From assembly GCA_016210005.1 (NCBI GenBank), contig JACQVA010000012.1, forward strand, positions 1 to 64,000: DNA of 64,000 nucleotides, read 5' to 3'. The DNA comes from Deltaproteobacteria bacterium (GTDB taxonomy: Bacteria > Desulfobacterota > Binatia > HRBIN30 > JACQVA1). Every line of letters starts with the position of its first letter. Position 1 is the first letter of the stretch. Both the position numbers and the translations under genes were made by a program. Below, one piece after another: positions 32,887-63,573 of the stretch. Under the pieces are notes generated by a model. The model ran no database searches and was not told the origin of the DNA. It worked only from the letters and a program-made list of their open reading frames with translations.

Positions 32887-34251
32887 ATGCTGTCGCGCAG
32901 CGAGCCACAAGAAATCACGCGGGGCTGTAGGCTGGGTCCGGCGACGCGGACTCACAAGACCGTCTACGTCGCCATGAGCGCAGACGTGGTGCATCCCGGC
33001 CACATGAACATCCTGAAGATCGCCCGAGCTTATGGCGAGGTGGTCGTTGGTCTGCTGACCGACGAGGCGATCGCCAGCTACAAGCGGCTGCCTTACATGA
33101 CCTACGAGCAGCGCAAATGCGTGGTCGAGAACATCCAAGGGGTAGCGCGGGTGATTCCGCAGACGCAGCTGGACTACGTGCCTAACCTCCTCGCGCTCAA
33201 ACCTGACTATGTCGTTCACGGCGATGATTGGAGAACGGGTGTGCAGGCATCGGTTCGGCAGCGGGTGCTCGAAACCCTGGCGCAGTGGGGCGGCCAGCTG
33301 GTCGAACCCAGTTACACCAAGGGGGTGTCGTCGACGAAGGTGATTCACGCGCTGCAAGAAATCGGGGTGACGCCCGATATCCGCCGCCGCAGGTTGCGAC
33401 GGCTGCTGACGGCCAAGCCGCTGGTCACGACCATCGAGGCCCACAACGGGCTAACCGGCTTGATCGCCGAACACGCCAGCGAGTCACGCGATGGCGTGCC
33501 GGTGGAGTTCGACGCCATCTGGCTCAGCAGCCTGACCGACTCGACCGCCAAGGGACGCCCGGACATCGAATACGTCGACCTCACCTCCAGAATGAGCACG
33601 CTCCAGGATATTCTTGAAGTCACCACTAAGCCGGTCATCTACGACGGCGATTCCGGCGGGCAGTCCGAGCACTTCGCGTTTGCGGTCAAGACCCTCGAAC
33701 GGCTGGGCGTGTCGGCGGTGATCATAGAAGACAAGGTCGGCCTCAAGCGTAACTCGATGTTTGGGACCGAAGCAGCGCAGGTGCAGGACACGATCGACAA
33801 CTTCTGCCACAAGATCCATGCCGGCAAGAAGGCGCAGGTGACGGACGACTTCATGGTGGTCGCGCGCATCGAGTCGTTGATCCTCGAGCAAGGGGTGGAT
33901 GACGCGCTGGAGCGGGCGCAGGCCTACGTCGCCGCCGGCGCCGACGGCATCATGATCCACAGCCGGGAGAAGTCGCCCGCGGAGATCTTCCAATTCGCTG
34001 CCGCCTATCGCCAGTTCAAGCTGCGGGCTCCGCTCGTGGTCGCGCCCACGATGTTCAACGCGGTCACCGAAGAAGAACTCAAGCAGCGCGGGGTGCAGAT
34101 CGTGATCTACGCCAACCACCTTCTGCGCAGCGCTTACCCGAGCATGCTGGCAACTGCGAAGACGATCCTCAGGCACGGCCGCTCGCTGGAGGCGGACGAG
34201 CGCATGATGCCGATCCAGGAGATCTTGACCCTCATCCCGGGAAGCATCTAG
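32887..34251 (+). CDS. aepX: PEP phosphomutase with N-terminal cytidylyltransferase domain
   Basis: This 454-residue fusion has a nucleotidyltransferase at residues 17-155, with HPGH at about 37-40 and KGVSSTK near 150. It is of the type that activates phosphonates or polyols with CTP. Residues 170-450 are PEP mutase: the YDGDSGG metal loop and the [11 protein letters not shown] catalytic motif of true phosphomutases (EDKxG) near residue 280. The mutase converts PEP to phosphonopyruvate, forming the C-P bond. GGGGAAGGG precedes the ATG. The next gene follows after 2 bp. The cytidylyl substrate is inferred to be the phosphonate end product of this operon. Confidence 0.93.
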
Positions 34252-34253
34252 CC

Positions 34254-35381
34254 ATGCTCGACTGTGCCGTGATCTTTCGCGCGTTCGCCGATGCCGCCGT
34301 AACGTTCTTCGCCGGAGTGCCCGACTCCGTACTCAAGCACCTGTGCGCGTACATCGCGGACCACGCGGATGCCGGGCGCCACATCATTGCTGCCAATGAA
34401 GGCGGCGCGATCGCCGTGGCCGCAGGACACTACCTGGCCACCGGCCAATGCGCCTGCGTTTACAGTCAGAACGCCGGGCAGGGCAACACGATTAACCCGC
34501 TCACCTCTCTGGCGGATCCGCAGGTGCACGGCATTCCGCTACTGCTGCTGCTGGGATGGCGTGGCGAACCAGAGCGGCATGATGAGCCCCAGCACCTCAA
34601 ACAGGGCAGGGTGACGATCCCGCTGCTGCAGACTCTCGAGATCCCATGGGACATCCTGCCCGAGGGCGAAGGAGCGGCGGCGGCTTGCCTGCAGCGAATC
34701 GTCAAGACGGCGATCGCGCGCAGCGGCCCGGCGGCCGTCGTTGTACGCGACGGTGCGTTTGCGCCCTATCAGCGCCGGCACAAGGAGGCCGACCGCTACG
34801 CGCTGTCACGTGAGGAGGCGCTGAAGTTGATCGTCGGCAGTGCTGGGCCGCACGATATCCTGGTTTCGAGCACCGGCAAGATGTCACGCGAGCTCTACGA
34901 ATACCGCGTGCAACGCGGGGAGAATCCCGGCCGAGATTTCCTTTGCGTCGGCGCGATGGGGCACGCCTCGCAAATCGCCTTGGGTATAGCCATGGCCAAG
35001 CCGCAGCGGCGCGTGCTCTGCCTCGACGGCGACGGGGCACTGCTCATGCACATGGGGTCACTGGCAGTAATTGGCCAGCAGGGGCCGGCAAACTTCGTGC
35101 ACGTTGTGCTCAACAACGGTGCCCACGAGTCGGTCGGCGGACAGCCCACGGCCGGCTTCAGCACCGACCTGCCTGGGGTAGCGAGAAGCTGCGGATACAG
35201 GATCGTCGCCAGTGCCGACAATGCCCCAAAACTCGTCGCAGCCCTGGAGCAATTGAAGTCAAGCGCCGGCCCGCAGCTCTTGGAAGTGCGAGTTGCATTG
35301 GGAGCGCGCGCCGACCTCGGCCGGCCGGCAACCAGCCCGCGGCAGAACAAGCAGCAGTTCATGGAATTTCTCCAGGCATGA
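34254..35381 (+). CDS. aepY: Phosphonopyruvate decarboxylase (TPP-dependent)
   Basis: The 375-residue enzyme has the split PYR/PP layout. The N-terminal part holds the catalytic Glu in IIAANEGGAIAVAAG, and the TPP-binding motif near residue 258 reads GDGALLMHMGSL...NNGAHESVGGQPT. It makes phosphonoacetaldehyde and pulls the unfavourable mutase step forward. It is encoded 2 bp after aepX, and its stop overlaps the next start (ATGA). The length and both motifs match characterised Ppd enzymes. Confidence 0.95.
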   Translation: MLDCAVIFRAFADAAVTFFAGVPDSVLKHLCAYIADHADAGRHIIAANEGGAIAVAAGHYLATGQCACVYSQNAGQGNTINPLTSLADPQVHGIPLLLLLGWRGEPERHDEPQHLKQGRVTIPLLQTLEIPWDILPEGEGAAAACLQRIVKTAIARSGPAAVVVRDGAFAPYQRRHKEADRYALSREEALKLIVGSAGPHDILVSSTGKMSRELYEYRVQRGENPGRDFLCVGAMGHASQIALGIAMAKPQRRVLCLDGDGALLMHMGSLAVIGQQGPANFVHVVLNNGAHESVGGQPTAGFSTDLPGVARSCGYRIVASADNAPKLVAALEQLKSSAGPQLLEVRVALGARADLGRPATSPRQNKQQFMEFLQA

Positions 35382-36514
35382 CCCAAGCGGTGCATCTCGG
35401 TACTGGTGCTGTTCTGCAGTTGCGGGCCACCCTGGAGCGGCTCAATGCCCGCTCCGTCTTTCTGGTCACCGGTAAGGCTTCGTTTGAGTTGTCTGGGGCA
35501 GCGGCCCAGGTGCACGGTCAGTTGAGCGAAATCGAGGTGTGGCAGTTCAACAATTTCTCTCGCAACCCCGAGGCCCCAGAGGTCGAGCGGGGCTTGGCCG
35601 AGTTCCACAGGCAGACGGCCGACGCCGTGGTGGCAGTCGGCGGCGGCAGCACCTTGGATGTGGCGAAGTTGATCGCGCTCGGCGCAGCTCAGGGGCAGCA
35701 GGCCGGCGCCATTTGGCGCCAGGGCCAAGCGCCGCGCCTTGACGCCGTCCCGGTCGTCGCGATCCCCACGACTGCCGGATCCGGCAGTGAGGCGACGCAC
35801 TTCGCGACGGTGTACGCCGGCGGGAAGAAGCGCTCGGTGGCCCATCCATCAATGTTGCCGGTTGCCGCACTGGTGGACCCGGCGCTGACGGCGAGCGCGA
35901 GCCCGAAGCTGACGGCCGTCACGGGACTGGATGCCTTCTCTCAGGCGGTGGAGTCGTTCTGGTCGGTTCATTCAACCGCCGAGTCGCGAGGCTACTCGCG
36001 CCAGGCCATTACCTTGGTGCAGCGCCACCTGCTGAGTTGTGTGCGCCGGCCGGCGCCCGAGCACCGCGCGGCCATGTGCCAGGCTGCGCACTTGGCCGGC
36101 AAGGCGATCAACATAACCAAGACGACCGCGCCGCACGCGCTCTCCTACGCTTTGACGTCGCGCTGGAACGTGCCGCACGGGCACGCCGCGGCTCTAACCC
36201 TGGGCGCGATGCTCGTCTTCAACAGCAAGGTAACGAAGGCCGATGTCGCCGATCCGCGCGGCGACGAGCACGTGCGCGCAACGATGGCCGAGCTGTTCGA
36301 GCTGCTGGGTTGCGACAGCGCTGAGGCTTGCCGGGAGAAGATCGCCACACTGATGCGGGATGTCGGGCTCGCCACCCGCCTCGGCGAAGTCGGCGTACGC
36401 ACGCCCGGGCAGCGCGGCTTCCTGGTGGAGCAAGTCAACCTCGAGCGCTTGCACAACAACCCGCGCGCGCTGGATCGCCGGCAGCTGCGGGAGGTCTTGG
36501 AGTCGGTTGCATGA
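35378..36514 (+). CDS. Iron-containing alcohol dehydrogenase, probable phosphonoacetaldehyde reductase
   Basis: The product has 378 residues from the ATG at 35378, overlapping the aepY stop by 4 nt. The cofactor loop is VAVGGGSTLDVAKLIA. Group III ADH metal ligands are visible: the Asp/His set in TGLDAFSQAVES and HGHAAALTLG. After PEP mutase and Ppd, this family (PhpC-like) reduces phosphonoacetaldehyde to 2-hydroxyethylphosphonate. No aminotransferase (PhnW/AEPT) is present, which argues against aminoethylphosphonate as the product. The substrate assignment rests on context. Confidence 0.87.
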   Translation: MTQAVHLGTGAVLQLRATLERLNARSVFLVTGKASFELSGAAAQVHGQLSEIEVWQFNNFSRNPEAPEVERGLAEFHRQTADAVVAVGGGSTLDVAKLIALGAAQGQQAGAIWRQGQAPRLDAVPVVAIPTTAGSGSEATHFATVYAGGKKRSVAHPSMLPVAALVDPALTASASPKLTAVTGLDAFSQAVESFWSVHSTAESRGYSRQAITLVQRHLLSCVRRPAPEHRAAMCQAAHLAGKAINITKTTAPHALSYALTSRWNVPHGHAAALTLGAMLVFNSKVTKADVADPRGDEHVRATMAELFELLGCDSAEACREKIATLMRDVGLATRLGEVGVRTPGQRGFLVEQVNLERLHNNPRALDRRQLREVLESVA

Positions 36515-37746
36515 TGCAGGTACCGGCCGGAGCATTACGGGCGGCAGATAAGTCGCCCGCGCCCACGGCGCGCGCCGCCAGCGTGGGCCACCTCGACTTT
36601 TATCACTACGACTCGATGGACGTGCTCAGCTACGAGCCGATTTGCAGGTACCTCGACAACGCCGCGCTGGTGGCGCCCGCCAGCGACGGTGTGTTGGACT
36701 TCGCGCGCGCCGAACTCTACTTCCGCCAGCGCGGTCTGACATTCCAAACCGAGCCCAGTGGCGATGCCGCGGCCGTTGTCGGAACCCAGTACTTCTGGAC
36801 CTTGGGGCGCCCGCAGTACAAGCGCGTGCCCGTGCTCAGGTTGATGTACAGCCTGTCGGAAAAGGGCGGTGCGGCTCACGGCAAGGAATGGAGCGACTGG
36901 TTCGACGCCGTGCTCTGCCCGGGCCCGTATTCGCAGCGGCTGCTGCAACGCTGGGGACGGCGCGCCATCATCGTGGGCTTCCCCAAATACGACGATTACT
37001 TCCGCGGCCGCTACCGCGCCGGGGCGGTGCGGGCCAAGTTCGGCCTCGACGCCAAGCGCAAGTGCGCCTTGTACTTGCCGACGTGGGCGCACCATTCGTC
37101 GGTCGACCGATTCGCTGCCGCCATCCGCGAGCTGGCGCACGGTGGCGAATACCAAGTGCTCTACAAGCCGCACACCGTGACCACTCGCCTGGAGCGCCAC
37201 CGCATCGAGTGCTTCCGCAGCGAGATCGAGGCCGGCCAGCTCGTTTGCATCGAAGAGCAGAGCAACATGGCCGAGTTGTTATTGGTGGCCGACGTCGTGC
37301 TGGCGGACGGGATGAGCGGCGCTTTTTGGGAAGCGGTCATCGTCTCCGACCGGCCGGTGCTGGCGCTGCACGTGCACGGGGAGTTCGAACGGGTGCTGAT
37401 GGACGCGCGCGTGGAGGACTTCGCCCCGGTGTGTGACGAGCCCGCCGCGCTGCGCAGGAGCATCGAGCGGGCTACGTGCGCGCACGTCATCCAGCCGTCG
37501 CCGCGCGTTCTGCTTGCTAACGAGTTACTCTCTTATCGCGATGGCAGCGCTGGCCAGCGCGCGGCGGAGGTGATCGCGGAGCTGGCGGCTGAGGAAGACA
37601 GCCGCTCCTGGGCCGTGCTCAGGCGGGAGGTGCGCTATCGGACATGGCGCGCGGTGCATGCAGCTCGTAGCGACCGCTCATTGCAGCGCCTGCGCCACCC
37701 CGTCCTCACGGTACGGAATGGCTTGCGGCGCTTGGTGCAAACATGA
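36511..37746 (+). CDS. CDP-glycerol glycerophosphotransferase-like (TagF/TagB family) transferase
   Basis: The 411-residue protein starts at the ATG overlapping the dehydrogenase stop. It has a GT-B-like fold signature of the teichoic acid family: ALYLPTWAHHSS, then LYKPHTVTT and the C-terminal ADVVLADGMSGAFWEAV, which corresponds to the TagF ADxxxxDxS site. TagF relatives move a phospho-alcohol from its CDP-activated form to a glycan or polymer. In this operon the likely donor is CMP-activated hydroxyethylphosphonate made by the AepX cytidylyl domain. There is no membrane segment. Confidence 0.8.
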   Translation: MMQVPAGALRAADKSPAPTARAASVGHLDFYHYDSMDVLSYEPICRYLDNAALVAPASDGVLDFARAELYFRQRGLTFQTEPSGDAAAVVGTQYFWTLGRPQYKRVPVLRLMYSLSEKGGAAHGKEWSDWFDAVLCPGPYSQRLLQRWGRRAIIVGFPKYDDYFRGRYRAGAVRAKFGLDAKRKCALYLPTWAHHSSVDRFAAAIRELAHGGEYQVLYKPHTVTTRLERHRIECFRSEIEAGQLVCIEEQSNMAELLLVADVVLADGMSGAFWEAVIVSDRPVLALHVHGEFERVLMDARVEDFAPVCDEPAALRRSIERATCAHVIQPSPRVLLANELLSYRDGSAGQRAAEVIAELAAEEDSRSWAVLRREVRYRTWRAVHAARSDRSLQRLRHPVLTVRNGLRRLVQT

Positions 37747-44126: not shown

Positions 44127-45653
44127 ATGCAACCCCGCGCTCTTGCCCGGCACATCCTCGTAGCTGTTTGCTGCGGAGCCATCGCGAATCTCGCTTGGTG
44201 GGCTGTCGATGGGCTTGGTGCCCCGCTGTTCTGGGACGATACCGCCACGGTCGATTGCGCGCGCGACCTCGCTGCGCACCCGCTGCCGTCGCCCGAGTGG
44301 GGCTATGTCCTGGCGACGGGCACCCACCCGCCCTACGCGTACATCGTCCATTGGCTGATCTACTACCTGTGGCCAGCTCACTTCGTCGGTCTAGCACACG
44401 CTTGGCAACTGCTGATGCTAGCAGTCCTCTGCGGGGCTGCCTTTTATGTCTGTGAAGCCACCAGCGGTCGAGCCAGCGCTATCCTGGCCCTGGGCCTGTT
44501 CGCGTCGTGGCCGATCGTGCCGGCGGCTGCCCGCCAGATCGTCAACGACTTGCCCGTTGCCACCTTCGGGCTGCTGGCGTTGGTGTTGTGGTGGCGTGGC
44601 CATCGGCGTTGGGCGGTGGTGTGCTACGGAGTGGCGTGCTCTTTGAAGCTGACGGGGGTCGGCTTCTTGCCCGCGATGTTGTGGCTGAACCGTCGCCATC
44701 CCGCCGCGCATCCCCGCCGGGTTGCCTTGATCATGGGCGCGCTCAGTCTGCTGCCGGTGTTACCGATACTCGTCGGCCTGTTACAGGGGAACCCGAGCCC
44801 GAATATCGGCACCTACCAGCGCAGCTTGAGCGCCTCAGCAACTACGCTTTGGGGCCTAGTCAGACTGCCGGTAGTCGGCGCGCTGCGCCATCTTCTCGAG
44901 CTGTGTGTCTATGATGGGCGATGGGCACTATCGCTGGCTATCGTATTCCCTCTAGCCGGCTGGCTCCGCGCCGGAAGAGGAAGCCAGGGGGGCGCGTCTG
45001 CCGGCGCCGGCGGGCGTGAGCAGAGGCAGGTCATTGTTCAGCCTCTTGCCCTGGCGATGATCGGAGTCCTGTTCGTCGCAACGGTGTTTGGGGCAGTGAG
45101 CCTGCAGCGCTACTTGGTGCCACTGGCGATGCCCGTGGCGTGGCTGACCGCGCTGTGGCTGCTCCAGAGCCGGTCGTCGGTTTCTGCTTTGTGCGCGGCG
45201 GCCGCGATCGTGCAAGGGGTTTTGATATCGCACGATCTGGCCCCCGGGCTATACGGTTACGAAACCAAGATCGCCGCTAAGATCCCGGGCTTCGGCCGTG
45301 GAATCGACAGCAAGCCGGCATGGATGAAAGAATTCGTCGAGACCCAAGGGGAAGCGATCAAGTTCCTGCAAGCGAACGGGAGCGCGGCAAGTATCGGCGC
45401 CGACTGGCCGGCGCATTTCGCTCTCAGCGAGCCGGCGTTCGGCTACGTCGAGACGGCGTTGGATGTGCAGTGGTGGAAACCGGGCGAGCCTACCGGTGGG
45501 CTGGAGATCGTGTGGGTGGACGTGTGGAAGAGCGGTCTTGTCCCCGTGGAGCACGAATGGCGGCGGGAGTTCGGCCGGCGCTATCCGGTGGTTCTCTTCG
45601 GACTCAGAAACGGCAGCCTAACGGAGCGCGTACAAGCGGAGGAACGCACATGA
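44127..45653 (+). CDS. GT-C (family 39-like) membrane glycosyltransferase
   Basis: This 508-residue protein has roughly ten membrane segments. The first periplasmic loop has the paired acidic residues LFWDDTATVDCARDL, and then THPPYAYIVHWLIYYLW, which is the arrangement of ArnT/PMT-type enzymes using polyprenyl-phosphate sugars. A soluble C-terminal part of about 130 residues follows. It likely adds a sugar to the glycan or a lipid on the periplasmic side, with the GT2 at 49948 a possible maker of the lipid-phosphate donor. Its stop overlaps the rfbF start. Confidence 0.82.
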   Translation: MQPRALARHILVAVCCGAIANLAWWAVDGLGAPLFWDDTATVDCARDLAAHPLPSPEWGYVLATGTHPPYAYIVHWLIYYLWPAHFVGLAHAWQLLMLAVLCGAAFYVCEATSGRASAILALGLFASWPIVPAAARQIVNDLPVATFGLLALVLWWRGHRRWAVVCYGVACSLKLTGVGFLPAMLWLNRRHPAAHPRRVALIMGALSLLPVLPILVGLLQGNPSPNIGTYQRSLSASATTLWGLVRLPVVGALRHLLELCVYDGRWALSLAIVFPLAGWLRAGRGSQGGASAGAGGREQRQVIVQPLALAMIGVLFVATVFGAVSLQRYLVPLAMPVAWLTALWLLQSRSSVSALCAAAAIVQGVLISHDLAPGLYGYETKIAAKIPGFGRGIDSKPAWMKEFVETQGEAIKFLQANGSAASIGADWPAHFALSEPAFGYVETALDVQWWKPGEPTGGLEIVWVDVWKSGLVPVEHEWRREFGRRYPVVLFGLRNGSLTERVQAEERT

Positions 45654-46489
45654 AACTGGTCATCTTCTGTGGCGGTCTTGGCACCAGGTTGCGAGAAGAG
45701 ACGGAATTTCGGCCCAAGCCCTTGGTCGATATCGGTGGGCGCCCGATTCTCTGGCACATCATGAAACTCTACGCCCACTACGGGTTTCACGAATTCATTC
45801 TCGCTCTGGGTTACCGCGGCAACATGATCAAGCAGTACTTCCTCAACTACGAGGCGATGAACAACGACTTCACCATTTGCCTCGGGCGCCACAACACCGT
45901 CAATTACCACGGTGCCCACAACGAGCAGGACTTCTTGCTGACGCTGGCTGATACCGGCGCCCACACGATGACAGGGGGGCGCTTGCGGCGGCTGCAGGGG
46001 TACGTCCATGACAGCACATTCATGGTGACCTACGGCGACGGGGTTGCCGATCTCGATGTCCGGGCACTCCTCGACTTTCATCGTGCCCATGGCCGCATGG
46101 CCACCGTGACTACGGTTCGTCCGACCTCGCGCTTCGGCGTAGTCGACACCGACGCGGCGAGTCGCGTCTTGTCTTTCAAAGAGAAGCCAGACGTGGACGG
46201 CTGGGTCAGTGCTGGCTTCTTTGTCTTCGAGCGCGGCGTGTTCGACTACCTCGGCGGCGATGACTGCGTGTTGGAGCAACAGCCGCTGGAGCAGCTGGCG
46301 CGGGAAGAACAACTCATGGCCTATCGCCACGACGGCTTCTTCTACGCGATGGATACCTATCGCGAGTACCAGTACCTCAATGAACTGTGGAGCAGCGGCA
46401 AGGCCCCGTGGGCGGTGTGGTCCTCCGCCCCACGACTGCGTTGGACAGCCGAATGGAACAGTGTCTCCCAGACCAGCAGGCTCCAATGA
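45650..46489 (+). CDS. rfbF: Glucose-1-phosphate cytidylyltransferase
   Basis: The product has 279 residues from the ATG at 45650, with GGAGG upstream and a 4-nt overlap with the previous gene. It begins [21 protein letters not shown], the CTP-binding signature of Rfb[15 protein letters not shown] and [17 protein letters not shown] follow, with the usual [22 protein letters not shown] near the end. It makes CDP-glucose. The last 18 or so residues extend beyond typical RfbF and read into the next start region, giving a longer tail. Confidence 0.95.
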
Positions 46490-47598
46490 ATAGTGCGTTC
46501 TGGACCGATCGTCCAACCCTGGTCACCGGCGCAACCGGCTTGCTCGGCAGCTGGTTGGTCCGCCGGCTGCTCGCGGCCGGGGCTCAGGTGGTCTGTGTCA
46601 TTCGCGATTGGGTGCCGCAATCCGAGCTGGTGCGCAGCAATTTCCTCGACAGCGCGACGGTCGTGCGCGGCGACGTCTGCGACCAGGTCCTTCTCGAACG
46701 GGCGTTGGGTGAATACGAGATCGACACCGTCTTTCACCTCGCGGCACAAACCATTGTCACGATCGCGAACCGCAACCCCGTCTCCACCTTTGCCAGCAAC
46801 ATTCAGGGGACCTGGGCACTCCTGGAGGCGTGCCGGCGCAGTGCCACTGTCGGGCGCGTGGTTGTAGCCTCGTCGGACAAGGCATACGGCGACAGCAAGG
46901 AGCTGCCGTACACTGAGGACGCCCCACTGCAGGGCCGGCACCCGTACGATGTGAGCAAGTCGTGCGCGGATTTGATCGCCCAAAGCTACGCCGTGACCTA
47001 TCGCCTCCCGGTCGTGATCACGCGCTGTGGCAATCTATATGGAGGCGGCGACCTCAACTGGAACCGCATCGTTCCGGGCACGATTCGCTCGCTCCTGCGC
47101 GGCGAGCGGCCGGTCATCCGCTCAGACGGTAAACAGGTGCGGGACTATTTCTACGTGGAGGATGCAACGGCGGCGTACATGCTGCTGGCGGAGCGGTTCG
47201 CCACCAGCCCAGATCTGGCCGGCTTGGCGTTCAATTTCTCCAACGAGCTGCAGCTCACGGTGCTGGAGCTGGTGCAGCGGATCCAATCATCGCTGGCCTC
47301 CGGTCTCGAACCGCTGATTCGCAACCAGGCCAGCAACGAGATCCCCCGCCAGTATCTCAGCGCGGCCAGGGCCCGTGAGCTGCTCGGATGGACGCCGCTG
47401 TTCACCCTCGATCAGGGCCTGGATGCCACCATCGACTGGTATCGACGATTCTTCGGCGACACGGGGCAGCAGCAGGCGCCGGCGGCACAACCGGCACGGA
47501 CACTGCGCAGCAGCGCCCACCAACGGTCATTCGCAGGCGCCGATTCGCGGAGCGCGTCCGCTCGGCATGAGCGCAATCCCGATGCTCGAGACAACTGA
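46486..47598 (+). CDS. rfbG: CDP-glucose 4,6-dehydratase-like SDR
   Basis: The product has 370 residues and its ATG overlaps the rfbF stop. The NAD loop is [12 protein letters not shown]. Catalytic Ser/Asp-Lys region ASSDKAYGD and YDVSK match the 4,6-dehydratase clade, and HRGNLYGG-like [12 protein letters not shown] follows. It should convert CDP-glucose to CDP-4-keto-6-deoxyglucose. The last 40 residues are a low-complexity Ala/Arg/Ser tail, and the final 32 bp overlap the next gene. No RfbH (3-dehydrase) is present, so 3,6-dideoxysugars are not expected. Confidence 0.92.
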
Positions 47599-48910
47599 AG
47601 TCACCTGGTGCGAGGTCTGCGGCGGCGCCGGCCTGATCTCGGTGTTGGATCTCGGTAGCCATCCCCTGTGCGACGATCTGGTTCGGGTCGGCGACGCACG
47701 CCTCTGCCGGGAGTACCCCATCGAGATACTCTTTTGCGAGCGCTGCGCCACCGCGCATCAGCGCTTCCAGGTGCCTAATCGCGAGCTGTTCCGGAAGTCG
47801 TATCACTACCGATCGCGTTTTACCGCGGACGTGCTGCGAGGAATGGAGGCGCTGGTGGAGTCCTGCGAACGGCAGCTCGGGCCGCTGAACGGCAAGCTCG
47901 TGCTGGACATCGGTTGTAACGACAGCAGCCTGCTGGATGTCTTTGCGCGCAAAGGATGCCGGACAATCGGCATCGAGCCGACCGGCGCCTGTGCCGACGG
48001 GCTCAATCGCGGTCACCAGCTTTACAACGCGTTCTTCACCGAGGAGTCGGCTGAGGTCATTCTCCGAGATCATGGCTGTCCTGATATTATTACGTTCACA
48101 AACGTCTTTGCTCATATCGAGAACTTGCCCGGCGTTATTCGCGCGTTGAAGATGCTGATGTCTGCCAAGACCGTTCTTGTCATCGAGAACCACTATCTCG
48201 GAGCCATTCTCGATCGTAGCCAGTTTGACACCTTCTACCACGAGCATCCCCGGACCTACAGCGTGTGCTCATTCTTGCACATCGCCAGGAGCTTGGAGAG
48301 CGGCGTGGGCGCAGTAGAGTTCCCGTCCCGCTACGGTGGCAACATCCGAGTCTTCATGGGGCAACGATTTCCGGACCGGATCGGCCCCGCAGTGGCCGCG
48401 GCGCTGGCGAACGAGGCGTCGTTCGTCCAGCGCTTTGCTGACCTGCGGGCGAACGCGTCGAGCTGGAGGACCATCGCCGGCCGGCGCCTGGTGTATCTGG
48501 TCGCTAAGCACGGGCCGCTTTCCGCGAAGGCGTTTCCCGGCCGGGCGGCGATTCTTGTCAAGATGCTGGCGCTAGACGAGGCTTCGATCGCCGTCGTCTA
48601 TGAGAAGCCCGGATCGATGAAGATCGGGCATTATCTGCCGGGTACGAGGATACCTATTCGATCAGATGAGGAGTTGTTTGCGCTCGCAACCAAGCCGCCG
48701 ATCATCCTCAATCTGGCATGGCACATCTCAGGCGAGATCAGGCAGTATCTGAGCGAGCACCGGTATCGGGGAGAGGTCGTCGACATCTTGGATCCCAGCG
48801 ATCTTCCCATCGACCCGGCTTCGAGACGGCCGCCGCGCACCCCGCTGGATCTGAGCGGGGTTGATGAGCGCTCTGACTTGGCAAGTCCACCGTCTCTCAG
48901 CAGGAGGTAG
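47567..48910 (+). CDS. Sugar C-methyltransferase (NovU/TylC3/EvaC type)
   Basis: The product has 447 residues from the ATG at 47567; an ATG at 47582 is also possible. The N-terminal zinc site is CEVCGG and CERCAT. The central SAM domain has [15 protein letters not shown]. The C-terminal C-methyltransferase domain includes YHEHPRTYS, equivalent to the catalytic YHEH of this family, and a second Rossmann region. Members methylate carbon 3 or 5 of 4-keto sugars. With RfbF/RfbG upstream, the expected substrate is CDP-4-keto-6-deoxyglucose, giving a branched sugar. Confidence 0.9.
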
Positions 48911-57038: not shown

Positions 57039-58073
57039 ATGTCGAACAGGCGGGTCTTGTTGATTGGCCCATTCGGCCCCGGACAGCTCCCGGAGAGCTT
57101 TGCCCGCGCCTTCGAGCGGCTGGGCTACGAGGTGTTCCGCTTCGACTCCGACCGCGCCTACTTCGAGGCGGGGCCCGGGCCAGGCAATCGCTTCGTCCGC
57201 CGCCTGCTGCGCCGCGTGTTATGGGAGCGGATGAACCGCAGCACGTGCGAGATCATCCGCTGTGTGCGGCCGCGGTTCGTGCTGACGGTGAAGGGCACCT
57301 ACCTGCACGCCGAGACCGTTGCCCGGGTGCGGCGAGAGCTGGGCGTGCCGTTCGTGAACTACTACGCCGACAATCCCTATTGTGGCGTGCCGTGGAATCC
57401 TCGCAAGTCATCCACCCAACGGCGCGATCTAATCGCAGTCCTGCGCGAGTACACGCAAGTCTGGATCTGGGAGCGCGGCATGGCTCAGCGCTTGGTCACC
57501 GACGGGGTGGCGGCGGGCTACTTGCCGTTTGCCGTCGATCCGGAGATCTCACGACCGCTGACCCCGGCGGCTTGTGCCGAATGCGGCACACGTCACGAAG
57601 TGATCTTTATCGGCCAGCACTGCGAGAAACGCCAAGCGCACATCGGCGCAGTACGCCAGCACTCCGTGGCACTGTGGGGAAGTCGTTGGCAGCGCGCAGC
57701 AGCAGCCCTCAACGGGCAAGCGCGCATTCACCAGGGAGCGGTATTCGGCGCCGATTGCGCCGCGCTTTACTCGAGCGCGGCCCTGGCGCTGAACGTCGTG
57801 GACGACCTCAACATGCCCGGACACAACATGCGCACCTTCGAGATCACCGGCAGCGGCGGCCTCATGCTGTCGACCTACACGGCCGAGCAAGCCGAGTTCT
57901 TTCCCGAAGATCAAGCAGCGCTCTACTACCGCGAGCCGGCGGAGATCGATGACAAGATCGAGCGGATCCGGGGCGACCGGCCTTGGGCCGCACGGCTACG
58001 AAAGAACGCGCTCGCGCTCGCTGCCGGCCACCAGTACACCGAGCGCGCGCAAACGATTGCCGCCAATCTATGA
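57039..58073 (+). CDS. CgeB-like glycosyltransferase family protein
   Basis: The product has 344 residues from the ATG at 57039, with GAGG eight bases upstream; a GTG at 57021 is less likely. It opens VLLIGPFGPGQLPESFARAFERLG. The pattern FVLTVKGTYLHAETV, FVNYYADNPY, then GHNMRTFEITGSGGLMLSTYT is that of CgeB/GT-B proteins found in spore-coat and polysaccharide loci. The stop overlaps the next start (ATGA), so the two are coupled. Confidence 0.82.
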   Translation: MSNRRVLLIGPFGPGQLPESFARAFERLGYEVFRFDSDRAYFEAGPGPGNRFVRRLLRRVLWERMNRSTCEIIRCVRPRFVLTVKGTYLHAETVARVRRELGVPFVNYYADNPYCGVPWNPRKSSTQRRDLIAVLREYTQVWIWERGMAQRLVTDGVAAGYLPFAVDPEISRPLTPAACAECGTRHEVIFIGQHCEKRQAHIGAVRQHSVALWGSRWQRAAAALNGQARIHQGAVFGADCAALYSSAALALNVVDDLNMPGHNMRTFEITGSGGLMLSTYTAEQAEFFPEDQAALYYREPAEIDDKIERIRGDRPWAARLRKNALALAAGHQYTERAQTIAANL

Positions 58074-59242
58074 CGATGACGCCTGCGGCAGGAAATATCC
58101 TGGTATTCGTCAACAGCCCGGCGGGTACTGCGCTGAGTGAGCGCGGGTTGCAAGTCGCGCGTGCGGCCGCGCCGGCGAAGGTCCTGCACCGAGAGCAAGG
58201 CCGTCTCAAGGCCATCGCCGGGTTCTGCGGCGCGGTTGCCCGCGAACGACCCGAGACCGTTTACGGCATCGATAACGCGCTCGCGGTCGTCTGCGGTGCC
58301 CTGGTCGGTCGCCTCCTGTGGGGCAGCCAGTTCATCCTCGACAGCGGAGATGCGGTTGGTCCACTGCGGGCAAAGCTGGCGCGGGGTAACCTGATCGGCG
58401 GCACGCTGGGATCGCTGCTGGAGAAGACCGGTTACCTTCTCGCCACAACCGTCGTAGCCCGATCCTCAGGCCTTGCCGAGCGAGTGCGCTCGCTCAGCCG
58501 CAAGCCCGTAGTGGTGATACCGGACGGGTTCGATAGCGCGCAGCTGCCCGCCGCGAATGGCGATGAGAGCAGGCGCCGGTGGGGATGGAGCGCGGCGCAC
58601 CTGGTCGTGGGCGTAATTGGTTCTGCCGTGTGGAACGAGCGCCTGAACTGGTGCTACGGCCGCGATGTCATCGAGGCGGTTGCGCGAACGAAACGAGACG
58701 AGGTGCGCGGCGCCCTGATCGTGCGCGGGAACGGCGTGCCGCGATTGCGCGAGCTGGCGGCGCAGCTGGGCGTGGCGGACCGCGTCGTCTTCGAAACCCC
58801 GTTCGACGGCTACGCGGTTTACGAACAGATTCGCGGCTTCGATGTCGGCCTGTCGACGCAGACCAACGACGCGGTCGGCCAGTGCCGAACCAGCGGCAAG
58901 CTGGTGCAATATCTCGCGGCCGGCGTCTACATCCTCGCCAGCCGCGTCGGGGAAGCCGCCCGCGTACTGCCGGATGCCATGACCGTCCCGTACGAAGGCG
59001 CCTGGGACGAGCAGTACTTCGCCAGGTTGGCGCAGCGCATCGATGGCTTGCCGGCCCGTCCCGCTCGTCCCGCGCTGCGTCAGCTCGCTGCCGCCGTCAA
59101 CCACAGCCTGAGTGAGCGCTTCGAGTACGCCGGCTTGAGACTACGCTGGGGCGAGCTGCTACGCGCGCCCAAATGGCCGCTCGAGGCGGCTGCGGACAGC
59201 CCCTTCAGCCCCATTGGCAGCGGCGGCAAGGAACCTGCCTGA
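58070..59242 (+). CDS. Glycosyltransferase (GT-B, family 1/4-like)
   Basis: The product has 390 residues, starting inside the stop of the CgeB-like gene. The donor half contains VVGVIGSAVWNERLNWCYG, ALIVRGNGVPRLRELAAQLGVADRVVFETP and STQTNDAVGQCRTSGKLVQYLAAG, a GT4-like site in which Lys-Leu-x-x-Tyr replaces the usual Glu segment. The acceptor half is short. It ends 10 bp before the Asn-synthetase fusion. Confidence 0.82.
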   Translation: MTMTPAAGNILVFVNSPAGTALSERGLQVARAAAPAKVLHREQGRLKAIAGFCGAVARERPETVYGIDNALAVVCGALVGRLLWGSQFILDSGDAVGPLRAKLARGNLIGGTLGSLLEKTGYLLATTVVARSSGLAERVRSLSRKPVVVIPDGFDSAQLPAANGDESRRRWGWSAAHLVVGVIGSAVWNERLNWCYGRDVIEAVARTKRDEVRGALIVRGNGVPRLRELAAQLGVADRVVFETPFDGYAVYEQIRGFDVGLSTQTNDAVGQCRTSGKLVQYLAAGVYILASRVGEAARVLPDAMTVPYEGAWDEQYFARLAQRIDGLPARPARPALRQLAAAVNHSLSERFEYAGLRLRWGELLRAPKWPLEAAADSPFSPIGSGGKEPA

Positions 59243-59252
59243 GCTAACTTGC

Positions 59253-62200
59253 ATGTGCGGCATCGCAGGAATCCTCGGCGGGGGCGCAGGCGCCCGCGAA
59301 CAGGTTGGCGTCATGGTCAACGCCCTGGTGCACCGCGGCCCCGACGGGGAAGGCTCCTTCAGCGACCCCTGGGTGGCACTCGGCATGCGGCGGCTGGCCA
59401 TCATCGACGTGGCCGGCGGACAACAACCGCAATCGAACGAGAACGGCGCTGTCTGGATCGTGTTCAACGGAGAGATTTACAACCACGCCGAGTTGCGCGG
59501 CGAGCTGGTGACGCACGGGCACGTCTTTCGCACCGGTAGTGATACCGAGGTCATCGTCCACGGCTACGAGCAGTGGGGCATTGACGGCTGCCTCGAACGT
59601 CTGCGCGGCATGTTCGCCCTACTGCTTTGGGATGCGCCGCGGCGGGAGCTCTTCGCCGCCCGCGATCGGCTGGGGATCAAGCCCTTGTACTACACGCAAG
59701 TGGGCCGGCAGTGGTTCTTCGCCTCCGAGATCAAGGCCCTGCTCGCCTGTGCCGGCGTGCCACGCGCGGTCAACAGCAACGCCATCGCTCCCTATCTCCT
59801 GCGCCAGTACGTGCCGGCACCGGAGACCTTCTTCGAAGGGATCAACAAGCTGCTTCCTGGACATTACCTGCGACTGGACCCGAGCGGGGCACCGTCGCTG
59901 CGGCCGTTCTGGTGTCTTTCGTTCGGCGGCGGCCAGGATGGGCCTGCTTTTGGCGCCGCCGCTGCCGCCTTGCGCCAGCAGGTGATTGAGGCGGTGCAGT
60001 CACACCTGGTTAGTGACGTGCCCGTTGGCTGTCTGCTTTCCGGCGGCCTCGACTCGGCGATTGTCACGGCGGTCATGGCTCAGCTCAACCGGCAGCCGGT
60101 GCGGACCTACACCGTCGGATTCCCCGAAGTGCCGGCGCTCGACGAGCGCCGCTATGCGCGCCTGGTCGCTACCCAGTACCGGACGAAGCACACGGAGCTA
60201 GAGGTGTCGCTCGCTGCCGCCGATCTCCTTCGCCGGGTGGCTTCGCACCTCGACGAGCCGCTGGCGGACGCCGCCGCACTGCCGACTTATGCAATCTGTA
60301 ACGCGGCGCGCCAGCACGTCACCGTGCTGCTGACCGGCGAAGGGGGTGACGAGCTGTTCGCGGGCTATCCGCGGTACTGGCTCAGCCGGATTGCCGACCG
60401 GCTTTGCCGGCTTCCCGCTCGCCCCCGGCAGGCCGTGCTTGGGGCATTGGCCGCGCTCATGCCCGATGGGCGCGCTCGCAATGCCTGGCGCAAGCTGGCG
60501 TATGCTGCTGACGACCCGCTGGCTCGCAATGCCTTGTGGACGGGCGTGTTCTCTCCCGCCGAGGTGGCGCACTTGCGGGGCGGTCAGGAACCCGCTGTTC
60601 TGGCTGATCCAGATAGCCCCGCTTGGCCCTACTGCAACGACACGCCACCGCGAGATGGGCTGCATCGCCTGTTGTACTGGGACCTGCGCCAGTGGCTCGT
60701 CGATGACGTATTGATGAAGGTGGACAAGATGAGCATGGCCGCCTCGGTCGAGGCCCGCGTGCCTTTCCTTGATCACCGTTTGGTCGAGTACGCCGCGCAG
60801 CTGGCCCCCGAGTACAAGCTGCGCCGGGGGCGCGGTAAGGCCGTGCTGCGCGCGGCGTTCCGCGATTGGCTGCCGGCGGAAACCGCGGCTCGCGGCAAGA
60901 CCGCTTTTCGCTTGCCGCTGGACGAGTGGTTCCGAGCCGATCTTGGCCGTTGGCTTGCCCAGGTGGCGAGCGCCGGCGGCTCCTTTTGCCGCAGCTTCCT
61001 CGACCACCGTGCCGTTGAGGGCATGATCGCGGATCACGTGATGGGAGCGGCCGCCAACGGGCAACGGTTGTGGACGCTGCTGTGCGCTGAGCTCTGGTAC
61101 GCTCAATGGTTTGGCCCACAACGGCGGGCTGACGAAAGCCGAGCCGGTGCCCAGCGGGAGCGCGGGGTGTTGGTCGTGGCCGATCTACCGTGCGAGCGCT
61201 GGCCCAGCATGGATCGGTATGCGCAGGCGTTGCTGGGGCATCTTGACGGCGTCGGGCGCGATTACGTGGTGTCGGCCGCACCGGTCAACGGCCACAACGG
61301 GGCCGCCCCCGTGAGCGCACCGCGGCGCTACTGGAACCGGCTGGTGGCTTACCCGTCCAGTCTGCGCGGCTACCGGCCCGATGCAGTTCACGTCCTCGAT
61401 CATACTTACGCCCACATCCTGGCGCGCTTTCCCGGCTGCCCGAGCCTGCTGACCATCCACGACCTCTGGCCTTTGCGCCGCGAGCGGCAGCGCTCCGCTC
61501 GCCAACTCGTCCTTGACGAGCTGACCCGCCGGATGGTTGAGGGAATGCGCGCCGCCACGCTCCTGTGTGCCGACTCCGGCTTTTCCAAGCGCGAAGCGTG
61601 CGCGCTCGCGGGCATACCGCCGGAGCGCGTTCGTGTCATACCGCTTGGGCTTGACGGCGCATTCCTTACACTCATAGCGGCTGCGCGCGTGCAGGAATTT
61701 GCCCAGCGGGTGTTTGCGGCGGCGGCGCCGCGCCTGCTGCACGTCGGGAGCTGCGACGCTCGCAAGAACATCGAGGGGTTGCTGCATATTGTCGCTGAGC
61801 TTCGCCGAATCAGCCCGCGGACGCGCCTGTTGCAGATCGGCGGCCGGTTCTCAGCCGCGCAGCTGCTTCTGATCGCGCAGTTGCAGCTTGAGGGGGTGGT
61901 GCAGCAGCATCCGCAGGTGAGCGAGCAGGATCTCCTGTTGGCCTACCGCGCCGCGGACGCGCTACTCCTGCCCAGTTTGTACGAGGGCTTCGGTTTCCCC
62001 GTGCTCGAAGCGCAGGCAGCCGGTCTGCCCGTGCTCTGCAGCAACCGCGCTTCGCTGCCGGAGGTCGCCGGGGACGGCGCAGTGATCCTCGATCCGGAGC
62101 AGCCAAGTACGTGGGTCGCCGCCATGCTCGATCTCCTCGAAAGTCGGGACCGGCGTGAACGTCTGGTTGATTGCGGCCTCGGCAACGCGCGCCAGTACAC

Positions 62201-62258
62201 CTGGCAGCGCACGGCCGCCGCCGTGGCCTCGCTCTATGAAGAACTTCTCAATCACTGA
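59253..62258 (+). CDS. AsnB-type glutamine amidotransferase fused to GT4 glycosyltransferase
   Basis: This 1001-residue protein starts at the ATG at 59253, because the class II amidotransferase nucleophile must be Cys2 (MCGIAGILGG). Residues 1-210 are the glutaminase domain (RGPDGEGSF, FNGEIYNH). Residues 240-615 are the ATP-dependent synthetase domain with the PP-loop SGGLDSAIVTAVM near 263, GEGGDELFAGYPRY and the MAASVEARVPFLDH block. After a 20-residue linker, residues 637-1001 are a full GT4 enzyme (LLTIHDLWPLRRER, LHVGSCDARKNIEGLL, PSLYEGFGFPVLEAQAAG). AsnB homologues in O-antigen loci (WbpS, WbtH) amidate uronic acids. The fusion may couple amidation and transfer of one sugar. Confidence 0.92.
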   Translation: MCGIAGILGGGAGAREQVGVMVNALVHRGPDGEGSFSDPWVALGMRRLAIIDVAGGQQPQSNENGAVWIVFNGEIYNHAELRGELVTHGHVFRTGSDTEVIVHGYEQWGIDGCLERLRGMFALLLWDAPRRELFAARDRLGIKPLYYTQVGRQWFFASEIKALLACAGVPRAVNSNAIAPYLLRQYVPAPETFFEGINKLLPGHYLRLDPSGAPSLRPFWCLSFGGGQDGPAFGAAAAALRQQVIEAVQSHLVSDVPVGCLLSGGLDSAIVTAVMAQLNRQPVRTYTVGFPEVPALDERRYARLVATQYRTKHTELEVSLAAADLLRRVASHLDEPLADAAALPTYAICNAARQHVTVLLTGEGGDELFAGYPRYWLSRIADRLCRLPARPRQAVLGALAALMPDGRARNAWRKLAYAADDPLARNALWTGVFSPAEVAHLRGGQEPAVLADPDSPAWPYCNDTPPRDGLHRLLYWDLRQWLVDDVLMKVDKMSMAASVEARVPFLDHRLVEYAAQLAPEYKLRRGRGKAVLRAAFRDWLPAETAARGKTAFRLPLDEWFRADLGRWLAQVASAGGSFCRSFLDHRAVEGMIADHVMGAAANGQRLWTLLCAELWYAQWFGPQRRADESRAGAQRERGVLVVADLPCERWPSMDRYAQALLGHLDGVGRDYVVSAAPVNGHNGAAPVSAPRRYWNRLVAYPSSLRGYRPDAVHVLDHTYAHILARFPGCPSLLTIHDLWPLRRERQRSARQLVLDELTRRMVEGMRAATLLCADSGFSKREACALAGIPPERVRVIPLGLDGAFLTLIAAARVQEFAQRVFAAAAPRLLHVGSCDARKNIEGLLHIVAELRRISPRTRLLQIGGRFSAAQLLLIAQLQLEGVVQQHPQVSEQDLLLAYRAADALLLPSLYEGFGFPVLEAQAAGLPVLCSNRASLPEVAGDGAVILDPEQPSTWVAAMLDLLESRDRRERLVDCGLGNARQYTWQRTAAAVASLYEELLNH

Positions 62259-63573
62259 GACATCCGCCGTCGAGCCGCCGATGTCCAAACCCGCCGGCGG
62301 CTGCCGCGTAACGGTGATGTCGCCCGGTGCGGAACTCGGCGGTGCGGAGAGAAGCTTGCTGGCGTTTCTGCAAGCCAGCGGGGCGTACGGGCTTGAGACC
62401 TCGGTCATCCTGCCGCGCGGCGGGGCCTTGGCGCTGGCGCTGGCGTCGCAAGGGCGGCAAGGAAGGGTCGTGCAGCCGCCGCGGGCACTGCTGCGGCAAT
62501 CTCGGCATCTACATCCGGTCAGCCTGGCGATGGCGACGCTGTTGCCGGTAGCGGTACCGCGCTATCTGGCACGGCTGGCGGCGGCAATCCGCGCCGAAGC
62601 TCCGGACGTGCTCTATTCCAACGGCGTCAAGGCGCACTTGCTGGCAAGCGCGCTCGGACCGTGGCTCGGCGTGCCGGTGGTGTGGCACGTGCGCGACTTC
62701 CTCGATGGGCCGCTGCTGACGCGCCTTGCGGACAAAGTGCCACAGCGGGTGATCGCGAATTCCGAAGCCGTGGCTGCGCACCTGTCTCGGGGCATGCGCC
62801 AGCCGCACAAGGTCTGCGCCATCCACAACGCCGTCGATTTGAACGAGTTCTCGCCGGCCGGGCGGTCTAGCAGTGCGGCAATGCGTTACCCGGCCCCCTA
62901 TCGTGTCGGGCTGCCCGCGGTGCTGGCGCGCTGGAAGGGCCAGCTCCTGTTCCTCGATGCCGTCGAGCGCATCCGCCAGCACTGCCCCGGCACCCTGTTC
63001 TTCATCATCGGCGGCAGCATCTACGACACCACCAGCGAATGGGGCTATGAACGCGAGTTGCGGGGCGAGATCGCCCGCCGCCGGCTGGATGAAGTGGTTG
63101 TTATCACCGGCTTCCAACGCGACATGGCGCCATGGTACCGCGCGCTGGACGTCTGCGTGCACGCCTCGACTCGACCCGAGCCGTTCGGCCGCACGGTGAT
63201 GGAAGCGATGGCCTGCGGCCGCGCGCTGGTGGCGGCCCGTGCCGGTGGAATTCCCGAGTTGGTTAGCCATGGACAAAATGGTCTCCTCTATCCCATGGGC
63301 GACGCCCGCGCCCTCGCCGATGCCGTGGTCATGCTCTTGAGCAATCCGCGCGAGCGGCTCCGCTTGGGTGTGGCGGCGAGAGCGGCGGCCGTCGAGCGCT
63401 TCTCACCCGAACGCTACGCGGCCAGCATTGCTTCAGTGCTACGGGCGGCAGCGGATAGTAAGACCAGGTGTGTGTACAACGGATTAGACAGATCGAACGG
63501 ATTCTGCGGAGAGACCCGGGCGCGGATCTCACCGGATCTCAGAGGATCCGAACGCTCCGGTCAATCCGCCTAA
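62236..63573 (+). CDS. Family 4 glycosyltransferase with repeat-derived tail
   Basis: The product has 445 residues from the ATG at 62236, overlapping the fusion gene by 23 bp (ATG 62281 is an alternative). The N-terminal half has SPGAELGGAERSLLAFLQ and the acceptor cleft motif VVWHVRDFLDGPL. The donor half has LPAVLARWKGQLLFLDAV, FIIGGS, and STRPEPFGRTVMEAMACGRALVA with its E-x7-E. The catalytic part ends by about residue 410. The last 32 residues are encoded by a palindromic element and are unlikely to be functional. Confidence 0.9.
   Translation: MKNFSITETSAVEPPMSKPAGGCRVTVMSPGAELGGAERSLLAFLQASGAYGLETSVILPRGGALALALASQGRQGRVVQPPRALLRQSRHLHPVSLAMATLLPVAVPRYLARLAAAIRAEAPDVLYSNGVKAHLLASALGPWLGVPVVWHVRDFLDGPLLTRLADKVPQRVIANSEAVAAHLSRGMRQPHKVCAIHNAVDLNEFSPAGRSSSAAMRYPAPYRVGLPAVLARWKGQLLFLDAVERIRQHCPGTLFFIIGGSIYDTTSEWGYERELRGEIARRRLDEVVVITGFQRDMAPWYRALDVCVHASTRPEPFGRTVMEAMACGRALVAARAGGIPELVSHGQNGLLYPMGDARALADAVVMLLSNPRERLRLGVAARAAAVERFSPERYAASIASVLRAAADSKTRCVYNGLDRSNGFCGETRARISPDLRGSERSGQSA

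Follow-up and report, generated by a model that had tools for sequence, protein, structure and literature searches.

The window, a 64,000-nucleotide stretch at the start of contig C12 of a draft assembly (268 contigs, 4.5% contamination), contains a surface-polysaccharide locus. By Pfam and NCBIfam matches, an export protein, a Wzc-like protein, a Wzy_C protein, and an ABC-2 transporter with a Wzt_C domain are encoded around the gene considered here, together with several GT4 glycosyltransferases, one GT2 glycosyltransferase, and genes for CDP-glucose and methyl-sugars. The gene itself occupies positions 59253–62258 of the forward strand and, upon translation, yields 1001 residues with a single, terminal stop and an N-terminus reading MCGIAG, bearing out the uninterrupted frame of the original prediction. 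This frame is not a product of chance. An alternative, earlier start is provided by a TTG at 59214; translation most likely begins at the Met at 59253, given that Cys2 has to serve as N-terminal nucleophile. Pfam assigns GATase_7 to residues 46–165, Asn_synthase to 240–616 (E 2e-100, 337 bits), Glyco_transf_4 to 688–801, and Glycos_transf_1 to 822–972 (E 2e-25), the GT4 matches all being above cut-off. Upstream, an open reading frame for a weakly matching GT4-like protein (Pfam; 57983–59242, forward strand) ends 10 bases 5′ of the ATG of the fused gene. Downstream lies a separate GT4 glycosyltransferase (open reading frame and Pfam; 62206–63573, forward strand), whose frame is already open 5′ of 62206 and whose start is approximate. 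Further downstream on the contig, beyond the window, a carbamoyltransferase, another GT4, and a WecA-like protein follow.

The AsnB-type amidotransferase half comprises residues 1–620 (59253–61112, forward strand), an N-terminal glutaminase with Cys2 and a PP-loop synthetase, as delimited by Pfam, NCBIfam, alignment, and structure model. Alignment with E. coli AsnB and five relatives revealed that the residues conserved among these proteins are retained: Cys2, R47, NGE at 72–74, D97, the PP-loop SGGLDS of the synthetase domain at 263–268 (60039–60056, forward strand), a GEGGDE motif ending at E367, and K549. The Cys2 nucleophile, glutamine-binding residues, a PP-loop SGGxDS, and a synthetase domain, which mark an AsnB-type class II glutamine amidotransferase/synthetase, are present. 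In the first structure model, built from a mixed AsnB/GT4 alignment, the AsnB half alone was folded, and the GT half was then modelled separately. AlphaFold gives the AsnB half a pLDDT mostly above 90, and Foldseek matches it to TsnB9 and E. coli AsnB (1CT9). Fold and catalytic residues are shared with the E. coli enzyme at 33% identity, whereas the protein described here is much longer, lies in a glycosyltransferase-rich context, and fails the canonical AsnB model NF006949 (310 bits, cut-off 499). Its best NCBIfam model is TIGR03108 (XrtA/PEP-CTERM amidotransferase, eps_aminotran_1) with 557 bits, short of the cut-off of 816.9, while E. coli AsnB displays the reverse pattern (1050 bits for NF006949 and 245 bits for TIGR03108). 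The broad asn_synth_AEB model is passed with 485 bits (cut-off 267).

P. aeruginosa WbpS and E. coli O121 WbqG, both described as belonging to the TIGR03108 family, have been tied to uronamide formation, and so has P. gingivalis PGN_1234 through deletion (PMC7468200). A wbpS mutant of H. pullorum produces a truncated glycan, read by its authors as a replacement of uronamide by uronate (PMC6025236). The AsnB half has the architecture of WbpS, WbqG, and PGN_1234, with a Cys2 glutaminase and a PP-loop synthetase, and likewise resides in a polysaccharide locus. In contrast to these proteins, it scores below the family cut-off, carries a C-terminal GT4, and is encoded on a contig with no exosortase match. 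Exosortase matches in this genome are confined to contigs C53, C172, and C101, and a linkage of the fused gene to an XrtA/PEP-CTERM system was rejected on the grounds that C12 has none. Judged by sequence, the best guess for the AsnB half is a WbpS-like sugar amidotransferase. The earlier statement that its kin amidate uronic acids is thereby upheld insofar as the WbpS/eps_aminotran_1 kind is the nearest one, with the reservation that TIGR03108 membership is not attained. A paralogue of the AsnB half on contig C140 is found in a cluster of nucleotide-sugar dehydrogenase, GT4, GT4, AsnB, and carbamoyltransferase genes. The dehydrogenase in this cluster supports a uronic-acid substrate for the paralogue and suggests one for the fused AsnB half; because the paralogue lies beside a dehydrogenase gene on C140, amidation of a uronic acid by the fused protein may be taken as a reasonable guess. 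PF03721 nucleotide-sugar dehydrogenases, whose presence in the locus would support a WbpS-type enzyme without strictly defining it, have no match on C12 and five elsewhere in the genome.

The GT4 half comprises residues 639–1001 and the stop codon (61167–62258, forward strand) and was assigned by Pfam, alignment, and model to a subfamily named here after its WPSMD signature. Translation and alignment place an EX7E motif (SLYEGFGFPVLEA, E911 and E919; 61983–62009, forward strand) in the donor-binding domain. The AlphaFold model of this half (pTM 0.83) matches MshA (3C4Q), with which it has the GT-B fold and the EX7E motif in common, and other GT4s in Foldseek. Its first 59 residues are modelled poorly. 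The N-terminal β-α unit VLVVADLPCERWPSMDRYAQALL aligns with stand-alone GT4s, and it is on this alignment, the model being unreliable over that segment, that the N-terminus of the half is judged complete. The hallmarks of a GT4 enzyme, a GT-B fold, an EX7E motif, and both Rossmann domains, are thus established by Pfam, model, and Foldseek, and by alignment for the first 59 residues. A full AsnB and a full GT4 joined by about 20 residues, as originally described, are therefore confirmed by Pfam, active-site alignment, and structure models.

The nearest relatives of the GT half are stand-alone WPSMD GT4s from 15 different genomes of its own class, which are 33–36% identical to it and share its GT-B fold, EX7E motif, and WPSMD N-terminus; they are separate proteins there, whereas the enzyme is fused here. 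They display an N-terminal signature of the type A/S/C-D-x-x-E-E-x-W-P-S-M-D and begin approximately where the GT begins in the fused gene. No AsnB was found within flanks of about 1.5 kb of the WPSMD loci in these 15 genomes, nor in larger flanks of three of them (L151, L153, and L159); this GT4 therefore occurs in relatives without a coupled amidotransferase. At the latter three loci, the WPSMD GT4 is adjoined by a second GT4 with a start like RVxHxGKxYPxHxGG, an apparent counterpart of which is encoded some 4.5 kb on the downstream side of the fused gene (L198:2769–3956). The EExWPSMD subfamily (loci L200–L220, L151, L153, and L159) belongs mostly to one family (f12) of the class.

The join consists of 20 codons, residues 619–638 (61107–61166, forward strand). 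It holds no in-frame stop, a single substitution would suffice to turn any of six of these codons into one, and a TGA at 61130 lies in another frame. The AsnB frame aligns correctly up to the conserved end ELWYAQWF, and the codon-position GC pattern is alike on either side of the join. Relatives of AsnB end at a median of 18 residues past the position of the conserved W615, and the GT4 starts 24 residues past W615 here, so that the join extends little beyond a normal AsnB tail. At 61156–61169 (forward strand), inspection for motifs revealed GGGAG (61156–61160) followed after six bases by a GTG (61167–61169, residue 639), a possible vestigial or working GT4 start. This GTG precedes the W of WPSMD by 11 residues and falls inside the span over which candidate starts occur in stand-alone relatives. 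A Shine-Dalgarno-like GGGAG with a GTG at the expected GT start gives the impression that just one stop codon has disappeared. Of the 20-codon stretches in this gene's two other frames, 60–73% are free of stops. An open join of this length is therefore unsurprising in GC-rich DNA, and the loss of one stop between two genes in the same frame would suffice.

Further AsnB–GT4 fusions were sought in partly overlapping draws totalling about 1,300 genomes, with thresholds set where a fused relative should exceed them. No second fusion was found in 58 relatives, 148 genomes of the class, 395 genomes of the phylum, 396 genomes of the phylum of a Terriglobia genome, or 399 genomes of the phylum of Proteobacteria bacterium 005FR1, the last draw having been searched without a positive control. 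The same was true for the best 80 of 586 relatives in a GTDB contig collection and for 642 plasmid and 23 phage records matched at 80% coverage. This sampling was non-exhaustive and may have passed over a fusion whose AsnB half has diverged or whose GT4 is a different one. Relatives of AsnB are almost everywhere stand-alone in the sampled genomes, and no further genome among them showed the same architecture, as would be expected of a conserved fusion family. Seven loci matching residues 1 to about 999 were rejected, as AsnB and GT4 share a frame in none of them. The long AsnB frames of L012/L161, L013, L182/L195, and L194 were likewise discarded, Pfam identifying AsnB alone and their N-terminal extensions being out-of-frame GC-rich read-through. 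The original prediction had held that relatives always encoding two separate proteins would speak against it, and this is what was encountered as far as the sampled genomes, plasmids, and phages extend. Its remark that the fusion was not known to it as a described architecture agrees with the literature search, in which no AsnB–GT4 fusion was found.

Two other AsnB frames do continue into a second protein. One, L082:5239–9081 from a Gammaproteobacteria MAG, enters a GINT1_N-type domain; the other, L193:5690–10792 from an Acidobacteria contig, runs into a Zn-dehydrogenase/GFO_IDH_MocA protein. Both were rejected as AsnB–GT4 fusions, their C-terminal partners being real but not GT4s. In L193, the AsnB tail becomes LICFRPGPSAPRGRSRRRRP and is followed by a dehydrogenase with its own Met start, and a run of unknown bases lies upstream; the extension is evidently a frameshift and likely an artefact. 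The fused gene has in common with these two cases an AsnB frame entering a second domain, and the partner differs each time (GT4, GINT1_N, dehydrogenase), which argues for occasional merging of AsnB with whatever gene is downstream, be it natural or artefactual. In the contig collection, 20 of 89 AsnB genes have a GT4 as same-strand neighbour, downstream in 8 cases and upstream in 12. On a rough estimate, this is just mildly above the expectation from the GT4 density of such loci. Adjacency makes a merger easy; a shared substrate does not follow from it.

Since the two halves are separate proteins in all relatives examined, the fusion appears to be private to this genome, or an unnoticed error in its sequence, and not the mark of a novel enzyme class. 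With modest confidence, we favour a merger private to this lineage of two neighbouring operon genes through loss of the AsnB stop, each half keeping its usual role. This reading is based on the completeness of both domains, the preference for TIGR03108, the stand-alone WPSMD relatives, the GTG/GGGAG site, the AsnB-tail-like join, and the adjacency of 20 in 89. In a surface-polysaccharide operon, the gene for a WPSMD-type GT4 would have lain next to that for a glutamine amidotransferase of the WbpS/XrtA-like kind, and loss of the amidotransferase stop codon would have merged them into one frame in this lineage. The AsnB half would use ammonia from glutamine, together with ATP, to convert the carboxylate of a sugar precursor (a hexuronate linked to a nucleotide or lipid is the best guess) to an amide, and the GT4 half would extend the glycan by a sugar. 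What we observe is the reading frame, the two domains with intact active-site motifs, relatives in which they are separate, and an internal site resembling a start; the substrates, the order of reactions, and the form of the product (one chain, two, or both) we infer. Against a merger stands its occurrence in one genome alone, and the picture would be identical if the join had been misassembled or a base in it miscalled. Such an artefact, in which the two genes are in reality separate neighbours and miscalled bases, mixed strains, or misassembly erased a stop or shifted the frame within the join, is rather unlikely but deserves to be taken seriously. It would account for a fusion seen once, in a draft genome with contamination and with a start-like GTG and GGGAG at the expected GT start, and it has a comparable case in the contig of another genome, L193. 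Unlike in L193, however, the AsnB frame is correct through ELWYAQWF, and the equal codon-position GC pattern on both sides means that any error would be confined to the join itself.

The original prediction had gone further in suggesting that the same sugar is amidated and transferred on one polypeptide, a possible arrangement for which no specific support emerged, given that the GT4 subfamily is stand-alone, nearly all AsnB relatives are too, and C12 is devoid of a nucleotide-sugar dehydrogenase match. A dedicated bifunctional enzyme, its AsnB half amidating a uronic acid and its GT4 half transferring that amidated sugar, would agree with the two intact active sites, with the clustering of the C140 paralogue with a nucleotide-sugar dehydrogenase, two GT4s, and a carbamoyltransferase, and with the five dehydrogenase genes of the genome; it is nonetheless improbable, as the sampled genomes offer no further fusion, the GT4 relatives have no AsnB nearby, and the minimal join resembles an AsnB tail followed by a GT start. 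A genuine, expressed bifunctional enzyme that would amidate a hexuronate precursor and transfer the resulting sugar, the first AsnB–GT4 fusion, its GT4 perhaps produced separately as well from the GTG at 61167, is just as hard to credit, if not harder. AsnB-family enzymes amidate diverse carboxylates. The AsnB half might hence make another amide, such as asparagine, an amidated peptidoglycan precursor, or an amino-acid substituent of a glycan, and have been joined to the GT4 by accident; the passing score with asn_synth_AEB is in keeping with this, but the failure with NF006949, the top score with TIGR03108, and the polysaccharide locus render it very improbable. Were the frame real and translated into one protein, amide formation would be physically linked to glycosyl transfer, and a direct clue to the donor of this GT4 subfamily would be at hand. 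Should the frame prove artefactual or the merger private, caution is called for in deducing how a pathway works from a single apparent fusion in a GC-rich draft genome, where a lost stop readily opens into the next gene.

Two further gene groups were noted in the window. At 32887–37746, a cytidylyltransferase–PEP mutase fusion with an EDKxxxxxNS motif, a phosphonopyruvate decarboxylase (TIGR03297, 472 bits, above cut-off), an iron alcohol dehydrogenase, and a CDP-glycerol-transferase-like protein constitute a phosphonate tailoring set, which suggests CMP-hydroxyethylphosphonate decoration of the polysaccharide (compare PMC6697681). At 45653–48910, a glucose-1-phosphate cytidylyltransferase (above the TIGR02623 cut-off), a CDP-glucose 4,6-dehydratase-like protein, and a C-methyltransferase probably provide a CDP-linked, C-methyl-branched deoxysugar. 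Finally, 29 viral-labelled contigs from IMG/VR (L109–L137) contain AsnB relatives, many of them at the very contig end; these may represent either host sequence at the margins of proviruses or sugar-modifying genes of viruses.
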